20,920 nucleotides of DNA from a virus. This document shows, one piece after another, positions 9,366 to 20,920 of the stretch. Position numbers and translations under genes: made by a program. The first letter of the stretch is position 1; every line of letters begins with the position of its first letter. The notes beneath the pieces are model-generated. The model was not told where the DNA came from. It ran no database searches and saw nothing but the letters and a program-made list of their open reading frames with translations. Where the stretch lies: positions 1 to 20,920 of IMG/VR virus record IMGVR_UViG_3300043446_002599, one strand, 5' to 3'.

Positions 9366-10934
<1,569 letters not shown>

Positions 10935-10938
<4 letters not shown>

Positions 10939-17773: not shown

Positions 17774-18054
17774 CTGATACCGACGCGGCGGGGCTGGCCA
17801 TGCACCCGCCATACCGTCAAAACACACGCGGCCCTCGATGTCTCGGCGCGAGATACGAGTTGCAGCGTTTACCGGCTCTACAGATCAAGGCGCGACTCTT
17901 GATTGTAGGCTACCTATCGTCCGTCACCCCGTTCGATCGCGAAGGCCAGCCTCGGCGCGAGGCGGCAGGCGATGAACGCAATCTTGCTGCCCGGTGCCGG
18001 CGCGGCGCCAGGTGCAGTTCGATCAGCGGATCAGGACCATATTTCGTGGAGCTG
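17774..18054. other. Palindrome-rich non-coding region
   Basis: I find no convincing gene here. Two copies of the 11-base palindrome CTCGGCGCGAG lie 109 bases apart (17842-17852 and 17951-17961). A long hairpin occurs at 17878-17908: CTACA, bulged G, ATCAAG, 8-base loop, CTTGAT, TGTAG, an 11-bp stem. GGCGCGGCGCC lies near 17998. This could be a control region, an origin component or a structured RNA; nothing decides among them. Confidence 0.45.
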
Positions 18055-18141
18055 TCAGTCTAGGGACAGCAGGATCAAGCAAACAATGAATAAAGTTGCA
18101 GTTGCAACAGCGGCACCGACGGTTGCTGCGATCAAAGACAT
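18055..18141 (-). CDS. Possible 28-aa membrane peptide
   Basis: A short minus-strand frame encodes MSLIAATVGAAVATATLFIV then CLILLSLD, a nearly continuous hydrophobic helix that would span the membrane. GAGA lies about 8 bases before ATG 18141. No good promoter is seen, and a terminator lies between it and the gene to its right. It could be a small phage membrane protein like the 30-residue one at 15432, or chance. The opposite strand also has a short frame (MNKVAVATAAPTVAAIKDMV, from 18087), which I consider less likely. Confidence 0.35.
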   Translation of the reverse strand: MSLIAATVGAAVATATLFIVCLILLSLD

Positions 18142-18321: not shown

Positions 18322-18606
18322 TCACTGGTGCGTCGTTTTGTCGCGATCAGGAGTAGTTGACGAGCGGTAAACCACGAAACCTCGGCCGTCGCATGTGTCG
18401 CAGGTCTCGCGGCGGCCATTCGAGGCAGGATCTATGCCTGATGCCCCGCAATCTGGGCAGAGATCCAAACCGGACTGCCTGATGGCGTCCTCAAGAACGA
18501 GGCAGATCAGGTTGCTCGTGCTTCTGCGATCGCGAGAAGCAAGCTCAGAGAGAGCGTTGCGAAGGCCGGCGGCCATGCGAATTGACGAAACGGGTGTGTT
18601 GCTCAT
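18322..18606 (-). CDS. Ribbon-helix-helix protein with Cys4 zinc motif
   Basis: A 94-residue protein from ATG 18606. Residues about 4-44 (TPVSSIRMAAGLRNALSELA, then RDRRSTSNLICLVLEDAIRQ) have the pattern of an Arc/MetJ/CopG ribbon-helix-helix DNA-binding domain. The C-terminal part has C50-P-D-C53-G-A-S-G and C69-D-T-C72-D-G-R-G, like the CxxCxGxG repeats of the DnaJ zinc domain. That combination is unusual. A promoter with -10 only 7 bases before the ATG suggests a leaderless mRNA. An in-frame TTG at 18642 lies in the -35 box and is less likely. Divergent from the ArdC gene with an operator-like repeat between, it may be the regulator of the plus-strand blocks and of itself; this is inferred. 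Confidence 0.75.
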   Translation of the reverse strand: MSNTPVSSIRMAAGLRNALSELASRDRRSTSNLICLVLEDAIRQSGLDLCPDCGASGIDPASNGRRETCDTCDGRGFVVYRSSTTPDRDKTTHQ

Positions 18607-18613
18607 GAATCGG

Positions 18614-18642
18614 TATGTAATACATCCAACGGCACGGTGCAA
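18614..18642 (-). promoter_or_regulatory. Promoter of the RHH gene
   Basis: On the minus strand: TTGCAC (18642-18637), 17-base spacer, TACATA (18619-18614). The expected transcription start (about 7 bases on) coincides with ATG 18606, and there is no ribosome-binding site. ATGTATTACAT at the -10 is nearly palindromic and could be a repressor contact. Confidence 0.5.
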
Positions 18643-18671
18643 GGGCTAAATAATCGACAGCTACTTTGACT

Positions 18672-18699: not shown

Positions 18700-18729
18700 T
18701 TGACAAGGTGCACTACAATGTAGTATAAG
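18700..18729 (+). promoter_or_regulatory. ArdC-operon early promoter with internal palindrome
   Basis: TTGACA (18700-18705), then GTATAA at 17 bases or TATAAG at 18 bases. The perfect palindrome ACTACA-A-TGTAGT (18712-18724) covers the spacer and reaches the -10 box, a classical repressor position. The TGCACTACA part is shared with the promoter at 15049-15077. Confidence 0.78.
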
Positions 18730-18904
18730 ACTGGACATGACGGCGAAACACTCGATCGGCCCCAACCGGCCTAGCAGCGAGTGACAAGCGCCCCGCCAGC
18801 ATCGCACAGACGATCCGAGCGGAAACGGCCAGAAGCCGGAAGTTAGAGCATGAATTGCGAGGGGCATCCGCCCCGATAAAAAAACACGACATGGGAAGAC
18901 AAAA
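18730..18904 (+). promoter_or_regulatory. Structured leader before the ArdC gene
   Basis: About 175 untranslated bases with several possible stems: CACTCG to CGAGTG enclosing GGCC-CCAACC-GGCC (about 18751-18783), CGGCC-AGAA-GCCGG, and GGGGC-ATCC-GCCCC followed by seven A. A 15-codon frame (ATG 18737 to TGA 18784) starts at the expected transcription start. A regulatory leader is possible; nothing here matches a known riboswitch. Confidence 0.4.
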
Positions 18905-19810
18905 ATGGCTAACGACATCTATCAACAAGTAACCGATCGCATCGTCGCCGAGCTTGAAAAGGGTGCGACGCCTTGGATAAAGCCTTGGCGCAGCGCCAAA
19001 AAATCAAGTTCCGCCATGCCACATAATGCAATTACGCGGCGTCCTTATTCGGGTGTCAACGTGCTGCTGCTGTGGCTAACCGCTGATGCGGCCAATTACA
19101 GTTCAACCGGTTGGCTGACGTTCAAACAATGTTCGGAAGCTGGCGGGCGAGTTAAGAAAGGCGAGAAAGCGACTTTGATCACCTTCGTCAAACAGTTGTC
19201 TATTAAAGACAAAAACGACAGTGGCGAAGTGATTAAGGATGAAAACGGAGACGACGTAACGCGGCAAGTTCAAATGCTGCGCGGCTATTACGTTTTCAAC
19301 GTCGATCAGTGTGAGGGGCTTCCTGAAAAAATCACGGGATCTGTACCTACAGCAGATGACGCGATGTCAGACCCTGAATTTGACGCCTGGGCCGCAAGCA
19401 CGGGCGCGATCATTCGGCACGGTGGCGATCGAGCTTTCTACACGCCAAGCAGTGATTATATCGTGATGCCTGCGCGTAACGCTTTTAACGAAACTGCCAA
19501 CTATTCGGCAACGCTTCTGCACGAACTTGGACATTGGACCGGCCACAAGTCGCGGCTTGATCGTAACTTGCGCGGACGGTTCGGCGATGCCGAATATGCT
19601 GCCGAGGAATTGATTGCCGAACTGACTTCGGCTTATCTCTGCGCTGATATGAACATTGACGGCGACATTCGCCACAGTGGATACATTCAGCACTGGCTGA
19701 AGCTGTTGAAATCTGACAAGCGCGCGATCTTTACAGCGGCCTCTGCGGCGACAAAAGCGGCAGAGTTCATAAAGACTGCGGCCCGTCAGGTGGAAGCAAT
19801 CGCAGCCTAA
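18905..19810 (+). CDS. ardC: ArdC-type antirestriction protein
   Basis: A 301-residue protein. Residues 1-135 form the ArdC N-terminal domain (DIYQQVTDRIVAELEKGATP, WIKPWR, RPYSGVNVLLLW, GWLTFKQCSEAGGRVKKGEK), known to bind single-stranded DNA in plasmid ArdC. Residues about 155-300 form the zincin-like metallopeptidase domain with HELGHWTGH (His206, Glu207, His210) and the downstream acidic AAEELIAEL (about 232-240) likely giving the third metal ligand. All catalytic residues are present. ArdC on plasmids protects incoming DNA from restriction; a matching role early in infection is the natural inference. GGGAAGA lies 6 bases before ATG 18905. First gene of the right plus-strand block. Confidence 0.92.
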   Translation: MANDIYQQVTDRIVAELEKGATPWIKPWRSAKKSSSAMPHNAITRRPYSGVNVLLLWLTADAANYSSTGWLTFKQCSEAGGRVKKGEKATLITFVKQLSIKDKNDSGEVIKDENGDDVTRQVQMLRGYYVFNVDQCEGLPEKITGSVPTADDAMSDPEFDAWAASTGAIIRHGGDRAFYTPSSDYIVMPARNAFNETANYSATLLHELGHWTGHKSRLDRNLRGRFGDAEYAAEELIAELTSAYLCADMNIDGDIRHSGYIQHWLKLLKSDKRAIFTAASAATKAAEFIKTAARQVEAIAA

Positions 19811-19815
19811 CACTT

Positions 19816-19913
19816 CACCCAGCTAAGGCCGGGTGTCCCTCCCAATTCATGCAATTCTGCGATAGCTAACTACTCGTTGACTTGTGGCGAGTAGATACCT
19901 GTCGCAGGACAGG
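19816..19913 (+). terminator. Three hairpins between ArdC and the next gene
   Basis: CACCC to GGGTG with inner GC pairs (19816-19835), CTACTCG to CGAGTAG with an 11-base loop (19870-19894), and CCTGTC-GCAG-GACAGG (19898-19913). None is followed by a T-tract, so read-through is expected with processing or attenuation. They fill most of the 131-base gap. Confidence 0.45.
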
Positions 19914-19941
19914 ACAACAACCAAAACATGGGAAGAATACA

Positions 19942-20205
19942 ATGTTCTACACCGTTCAATATCAAGACTATTTGGGCGTCACCGCCGACCTTGATGCAAA
20001 AGAGATCGCACGTAACTATTGGCTAGACCAAGTTGATGCTGACGAAGCTGAGTTAATGTTGGAACAGATGTTTCGGCACAGCTACTTGGCTCGACAAGAA
20101 CAACTTCCGGACGAATTGCAATTAACGTGTGATCAACATCTGCGTGAAATGGTCAAGTATCACGTGCATCAATTTCTTGAAGACCACCACCAAAACCCTG
20201 AATGA
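19942..20205 (+). CDS. Acidic unknown protein, 87 aa
   Basis: An 87-residue acidic, mainly helical protein: MFYTVQYQDYLGVTADLDAK, then EIARNYWLDQVDADEAELML and EQMFRHSYLARQEQLPDELQ. No domain is recognised. I place the start at ATG 19942, not at 19882, because GGGAAGA in the shared ACATGGGAAGA leader stands 6 bases before it, and the extra N-terminal residues fall in the hairpins. Follows ArdC in the same direction and is probably part of the same early unit. Confidence 0.75.
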   Translation: MFYTVQYQDYLGVTADLDAKEIARNYWLDQVDADEAELMLEQMFRHSYLARQEQLPDELQLTCDQHLREMVKYHVHQFLEDHHQNPE

Positions 20206-20215
20206 GCAGCGACTA

Positions 20216-20233
20216 GCCCCTGGCGACGGGGGC
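20216..20233 (+). terminator. Weak hairpin after the 87-aa gene
   Basis: GCCCC, an 8-base loop, then GGGGC, followed by CTTTCCC. A short stem in the gap before the next gene; too weak for firm termination, similar to the hairpins after other plus-strand genes. Confidence 0.35.
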
Positions 20234-20280
20234 CTTTCCCTGCCCATCCAGCAGGACACTAAAACATGGGAGCAATATCA

Positions 20281-20499
20281 ATGCTTTACGCTACAATCGG
20301 CGGCCAGAACTGGCAAATGGATACCTGGGAGCAGGTTTCAAATGCTTATCTTCGGTTGATCCAGCACATCGGGCGCGTCAGTCGTGCTCCGCAGTGCAAA
20401 ATCATCGATGCCGCCGGTGAAATAGTTGCATATGTCACGGTGACGGGCGTCGTTTGGTCGCCAGATCACAATCAACCCTTCTTCGATCCTAACGCGTAA
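20281..20499 (+). CDS. Unknown small protein, 72 aa
   Basis: A 72-residue protein: MLYATIGGQNWQMDTWEQVS, a helix NAYLRLIQHIG, and a beta hairpin CKIIDAAGEIVAYVTVTGVV, ending WSPDHNQPFFDPNA. I start it at ATG 20281 because the ACATGGGAG leader precedes it in the same way as in the ArdC and 87-residue genes. The in-frame ATG of that leader (20266) would add five residues (MGAIS) and remains possible. No family recognised. Confidence 0.68.
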   Translation: MLYATIGGQNWQMDTWEQVSNAYLRLIQHIGRVSRAPQCKIIDAAGEIVAYVTVTGVVWSPDHNQPFFDPNA

Positions 20500-20507
20500 G
20501 GTGTAAC

Positions 20508-20780
20508 ATGTACTCGATACAACTCTTGAAGTTCAACGATCAGGGCGAGGGCCGCGAGGTCTTCGTTTCATCGTATAACGCACTCGATGCGGCCCATGCG
20601 GTGGCTCAGTATCTCGACAAGTCGCCAGAATATGCCACGCGGTTTGTCGATCTAATCACTAGCCATCCGGCTTGCATCGAGCTTGTAACGATGGACGACG
20701 CGGAGGATGGTTACTGGCTAATCCGGATGTCCAAAGAGCAGTACAATAAAGACTACCCGCACTCGATTGGTGAGCAGTAG
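20508..20780 (+). CDS. Acidic unknown protein, 90 aa
   Basis: A 90-residue acidic protein: MYSIQLLKFNDQGEGREVFV, a helix with NALDAAHAVAQYLDKSPEYA, then CIELVTMDDAEDGYWLIRMS. A small alpha/beta fold seems likely. AAGGTG lies 5 bases before ATG 20508, eight bases after the previous stop; it lacks the ACATGG leader, so it is probably translated as part of the same mRNA. A strong terminator begins just after its stop, marking the end of the block. Confidence 0.75.
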   Translation: MYSIQLLKFNDQGEGREVFVSSYNALDAAHAVAQYLDKSPEYATRFVDLITSHPACIELVTMDDAEDGYWLIRMSKEQYNKDYPHSIGEQ

Positions 20781-20783
20781 ATA

Positions 20784-20824
20784 GACCGCCCCCTGGGGCG
20801 GTCCTTTGGGGCGGTCCTTTTTCT
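20784..20824 (+). terminator. Terminator with duplicated 3' arm
   Basis: GACCGCCCC (20784-20792) can pair with GGGGCGGTC at 20795-20803 or with an identical copy at 20808-20816; the 13-base unit GGGGCGGTCCTTT is repeated in tandem, and the second copy is followed by more T. A strong intrinsic terminator in which the second copy supplies the better T-tract. Confidence 0.82.
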
Positions 20825-20920
20825 GCTTATCGGCAGAACGCGCGACCAACGCGCCCAATGCCCCGCAGTTTTGGTCCACAGATTGGCGTCTGTGGCTGCG
20901 AGGCAATCAGGAGCTGATGA
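20825..20920. other. Non-coding right edge with hairpins
   Basis: No gene is seen. TTCTGC-TTATCG-GCAGAA (20821-20838, overlapping the terminator's end) and CCACAGA-TTGGCG-TCTGTGG (20876-20895) form perfect stems. The second may belong to a following leader or transcript outside the window. Confidence 0.4.

Follow-up and report, generated by a model that had tools for sequence, protein, structure and literature searches.

The rightward gene unit that starts from 18.9 kb in the virus record IMGVR_UViG_3300043446_002599 is probably an accessory operon that a tailed phage expresses early, with the antirestriction gene ardC at its head and a role in interaction with the host. The window analysed here is the entire record of 20,920 bases. 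Its leftward late genes encode a terminase, a portal and a major head protein, and the rightward unit consists of ardC, orf2, orf3 and orf4 in this order and ends in a strong hairpin with a run of U residues. Judging from its relatives, the phage is probably tailed and the contig a fragment of a genome of about 60 kb that infects an alphaproteobacterium. Searches of the region against Rfam and, as DNA, against phage records gave no match. Among the structural genes, two minus-strand ORFs (2007–2516 and 10390–10938) look by eye like HNH-type homing endonucleases.

The lead gene ardC (18905–19810, plus strand, ATG at 18905 and stop ending at 19810) encodes a 301 aa protein that, as far as its sequence tells, is an ordinary, true member of the ArdC family. 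As the initial annotation had claimed, it joins an ssDNA-binding to a peptidase-like domain: ArdcN (Pfam PF08401) matches residues 3–131 at 1.3e-40 with 138.8 bits against a cut-off of 22.6, and the gluzincin-like metallopeptidase MPTase-PolyVal (Pfam PF18818) matches residues 158–280 at 8.3e-51 with 171.8 bits, far above its cut-off. PHROG 7245, an anti-restriction protein family, is matched at 6.4e-88, and the sole solved relative found by sequence is ArdC of plasmid R388 (6i89/6sna), with 232 bits over residues 4–293. Identity to the nearest phage and plasmid relatives lies between 41 and 55 %. The active site, likewise described as intact, holds up on alignment: HELGH occupies residues 206–210, and H206, E207, H210, E234 and E235, the latter two in the glutamate helix, are invariant among ten aligned proteins and correspond to H201, E202, H205, E228 and E229 of R388 ArdC, in which H201, H205 and E229 hold the metal (PMC7213743). 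The full metal site is kept in all aligned phage members, as would suit an ArdC whose main activity is that of a protease, one that processes or degrades a host protein, and not that of an antirestriction DNA-binding protein; we consider this reading improbable. Against it, we know of no substrate of ArdC. Moreover, R388 ArdC left HhaI undegraded and its metal-site mutant E229A still supported conjugation (PMC7213743). Given the behaviour of this mutant, the intact HELGH motif tells little about antirestriction either.

Besides these confirmed features, the analysis adds a promoter with an internal palindrome, a divergent ribbon-helix-helix-like gene, a repeated leader and a promoter enrichment at phage ardC genes. 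The predicted sigma-70-type promoter (TTGACA-18-TATAAG, 18700–18729, plus strand) faces ardC, and its TTGACA-N18-TATAA core has its single exact match in the window at 18700–18728. Inside the spacer lies a perfect 13-nt palindrome, ACTACAATGTAGT (18712–18724), a candidate operator with a single exact copy in the window. A 94-aa gene on the opposite strand (18322–18606, minus) possibly encodes the regulator of this promoter; it shows sub-threshold Pfam matches to RHH_5 at its N-terminus (4e-4) and to the DnaJ_CXXCXGXG zinc knuckle (2e-4) as well as a PHROG match to an Arc-like repressor at 1e-3, and its codon usage gives no clear coding support. Two plus-strand ORFs nearby (17800–18063 and 18434–18649) were ruled out as coding by their codon usage. 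In a comparison that takes in related phages and relies on a crude gene caller, a strong promoter was located within 250 nt upstream of 10 of 69 phage ArdC genes and of 8 of 349 other lead genes (Fisher p = 1e-4), an excess from which we conclude that ArdC is often promoter-proximal.

Three of the four genes are preceded by a near-identical leader with ACATGGGA, which ends a few bases 5' of the starts of ardC (18883–18902), orf2 (19920–19939) and orf3 (20258–20277), all on the plus strand and grouped as direct repeat family D2. It is possibly a common ribosome-binding context or the remnant of a duplication. A search of viral contigs returned 32 matches to it, which were present as a single copy everywhere except in one near-identical contig and were therefore taken as chance. 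An imperfect 26-nt inverted repeat (85 %) flanks ardC at 18848–18873 and 19827–19852; no mobile-element evidence was found there.

The initial annotation had listed three compact proteins of 87, 72 and 90 aa running up to a strong terminator, and the ORFs themselves were confirmed. They comprise the acidic orf2 (19942–20205), orf3 (20281–20499, or 77 aa if an in-frame ATG at 20266 serves as start) and orf4 (20508–20780, acidic with a net charge of −8), all on the plus strand. Their codon usage matches that of the phage late genes in this frame only, at 0.16–0.20 bits per codon, and none of 500 base shuffles for each ORF reached as good a fit. The clearest case is orf4, which differs from its counterpart in the near-identical contig L002 (IMGVR_UViG_3300046804_005295) by 20 substitutions within 200 bases, 18 of them at codon position 3 (binomial p = 2e-7), with dN 0.028, dS 0.327 and dN/dS 0.084. 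Such a pattern marks orf4 as a functional gene under purifying selection, and the codon statistics, joined for orf4 by this comparison, show all three to be real genes.

Fold, scan and alignment likewise place a terminator-like hairpin at the operon end (20784–20820, plus strand), where the folded segment 20770–20830 reaches −35.5 kcal/mol (z = −5.0), in agreement with the terminator noted before. Less apt is the picture of simple packing, as gaps of 131 nt 3' of ardC and 75 nt 3' of orf2, both with hairpins, and the shared leader interrupt the series. Given the hairpins in these gaps, ardC and the small genes may be transcribed as two or more separate RNAs.

L002 shares about 7.7 kb with the window and is identical to it until 20548, save for 50 nt of non-coding DNA further upstream (17939–17988) that L002 lacks. 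From 20549 to 20800, about 250 bases that cover most of orf4 and the terminator, the two diverge by roughly 10 %; at the end of this patch there is an indel near the orf4 stop and a 13-nt terminator deletion in L002, in which, as read from the sequence, the same kind of hairpin can still form before the U run, and then identity resumes. The patch looks like an exchange with an unsampled allele, and it may instead be an assembly chimera. A divergent orf4 with its terminator in otherwise identical DNA is what would be expected for an exchanged accessory gene.

Relatives of the three small proteins are scarce. None of them matched a family in Pfam, PHROGs or NCBIfam, and tblastn against phages gave weak, chance-like matches alone for orf2 and orf4 (E 0.4–0.6) and none for orf3. 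Against plasmids, where orf3 and orf4 were searched, orf4 drew a single weak match and orf3 drew none. When viral contigs were scanned with one protein at a time, L002 alone came up; it was also the only one among 48 related records, nearly all with ArdC, to contain the small proteins. One row for orf3 in a further record, L088 (E = 0.001), was rejected with its 14.6 bits over 40 residues that contain a stop. No match to the small proteins was obtained in 385 alphaproteobacterial genomes, a run made without a positive control, and in 80 contigs with related terminases, many of them short, neither ArdC nor the small genes were within reach. One of these contigs, L135 (66 % terminase), carries what reads from its sequence as a ribonucleotide reductase-like gene in the ardC direction. 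So far, orf2 to orf4 thus appear lineage-specific at the sensitivity of sequence searches, which is weak for such short proteins.

As the initial annotation had nominated these proteins as anti-defence candidates by guilt by association, we surveyed the neighbourhoods of the best 80 phage ArdC loci from an alignment-based scan. They yielded 391 called neighbour ORFs in 288 clusters, none of which is joined by orf2, orf3 or orf4. The 150 downstream proteins taken as representatives matched 14 Pfam families, with GP88 found twice and Sak, Mom, resolvase, sliding clamp, ParB, HTH domains and others once each. Mom of phage Mu has a known anti-restriction function, and the Mom-like protein was the one recognised anti-restriction protein among these representatives, to which PADLOC added two borderline matches; the tally rests on a simple gene caller with some spurious ORFs and has no matched background. 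A linkage of ArdC with known anti-defence genes in phages is not supported, and a literature search joining early genes with anti-defence gave nothing usable. The association argument is therefore weak; the candidacy of orf2 to orf4 retains a basis in their position in an early operon and in a weak fold likeness of orf3 described below.

Most neighbours are without a name, and the other named ones belong mainly to recombination, replication, partition and regulation. The small proteins could thus be general early proteins for regulation, replication or nucleotide metabolism that occupy the same accessory slot without relation to ArdC or defence, an explanation we regard as unlikely. It agrees with the named phage ArdC neighbours, mostly Sak and RusA (recombination), ParB-like proteins, resolvase, sliding clamp and GP88, and with the next downstream gene in L002, which begins at 20917, the window's end, and whose product of about 330 aa has winged-helix matches and a weak DnaD-like helicase-loader similarity at its C-terminus. 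However, orf2 to orf4 match none of those neighbour families, and they are replaced from one related phage to the next in a way that core replication genes are not. This turnover is visible in the podovirus-like IMG/VR contigs L021, L025 and L030, which have a related terminase and portal with ArdC divergent from them, but carry a 106–115 aa protein and others behind ArdC and lack orf2 to orf4. The same place for ArdC with other small genes behind it indicates that the slot is stable and its cargo variable. A terminase match lies nearby on the opposite strand at 11 of the 80 best ArdC loci.

A more specific proposal starts from the predicted structure of orf3. The AlphaFold2 single-sequence model (pLDDT 86.6, pTM 0.72) folds into a hairpin, one helix and further strands, a predicted beta-beta-alpha-beta-beta-beta arrangement. 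Its best PDB rows were Erh1 (Z 4.8), AcrIF9 (4.5, 4.3 and 4.1), a designed protein and MerB (both 4.0) and Dmd (3.9); AcrIF9 accounts for four of the eight best rows with Z 3.9–4.5, and no row reaches 5. The model thus weakly resembles AcrIF9 and Dmd, below the level that proves kinship: all three would share the small one-helix, antiparallel-strand fold class (VIA-align Z 3.8–4.5), but the structural alignments show 8–10 % identity with no family match, and another surface charge is expected. The reason for keeping this likeness as a lead is that AcrIF9 and Dmd are both counter-defence proteins of phages and resemble each other, with a Dali Z of 5.3 between them (PMC7714069).

Dedicated counter-defence, with orf3 as an AcrIF9/Dmd-like inhibitor that binds a toxin or a defence complex, and with orf2 as an acidic DNA mimic beside ArdC, is in our view a doubtful explanation of the small proteins. 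The confident orf3 model, the recurrence of AcrIF9 and the presence of RB69 Dmd among its best rows speak for it, together with the mutual likeness of the two proteins and the charge of orf2, which is −12 net in 87 aa (pI 4.6) and among the most acidic 10 % of 237 ArdC-neighbour proteins. This acidity is nevertheless within the range of those neighbours and not exceptional, and at Z values below 5 the shared arrangement is common and silent on function, with the unrelated Erh1 and MerB scoring equally. Sequence relation is lacking, phage ArdC seldom has a known anti-defence gene next to it, and orf3 has a net charge of −2, in contrast to the positively charged cleft reported for AcrIF9 (PMC7714069). 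Its strongest form, in which orf2 to orf4 and ArdC make up an early multi-target counter-defence cassette, with orf3 founding a new family of AcrIF9/Dmd-fold inhibitors and orf4 being an allele-swapped arms-race inhibitor, is a long shot; if orf3 were such an inhibitor, two types of counter-defence would be joined on one small scaffold. For orf4, the model is of low confidence (pLDDT 64), and its structural rows, mostly of ribosomal protein S24e with Z < 5, were set aside.

We therefore return to the early accessory operon as the preferred reading. The host sigma-70-type promoter at 18700–18729 would drive ardC, orf2, orf3 and orf4 up to the terminator at about 20784–20820, and the Arc/ribbon-helix-helix protein of 18322–18606 would probably repress this promoter later via ACTACAATGTAGT. 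ArdC would bind DNA and block restriction soon after entry, by analogy with R388 ArdC, and orf2 to orf4 would most likely be narrow-range host-interaction proteins, for takeover or counter-defence, that are quickly exchanged between related phages. Such a role is suggested by their position and turnover, not by known relatives. The slot behind ArdC, variable even where the packaging genes are related, is a compact place to seek host-interaction proteins.

To our knowledge, ArdC is well known on plasmids and little studied in phages. The closest characterised system, ArdC of R388, has the same two domains in 297 instead of 301 aa and the same metal ligands and catalytic glutamate, but it belongs to a conjugative plasmid, and antirestriction has been shown for the plasmid protein, whereas here the function is predicted from the sequence of a phage. 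R388 ArdC prefers ssDNA and is required only when the recipient restricts (PMC7213743). It acts on incoming conjugative ssDNA, whereas phage DNA enters double-stranded; protection of the phage DNA by the window ArdC is thus proposed by analogy. Closer in kind are the phage ArdC proteins of PHROG 7245, found in the Caulobacter phiCbK/Ccr group and the Manatee Spring phages with about 40–44 % identity over about 90 % of the length, and several of the best-matching phage ArdC records are annotated as antirestriction. These phages have other small neighbour genes and are not close relatives of the phage studied here. Strong promoters precede ArdC in several groups of phages, and in phages like the present one the gene is divergent from the packaging genes; from this, we predict it to be an immediate-early protein with a role comparable to that of the first antirestriction gene of T7.
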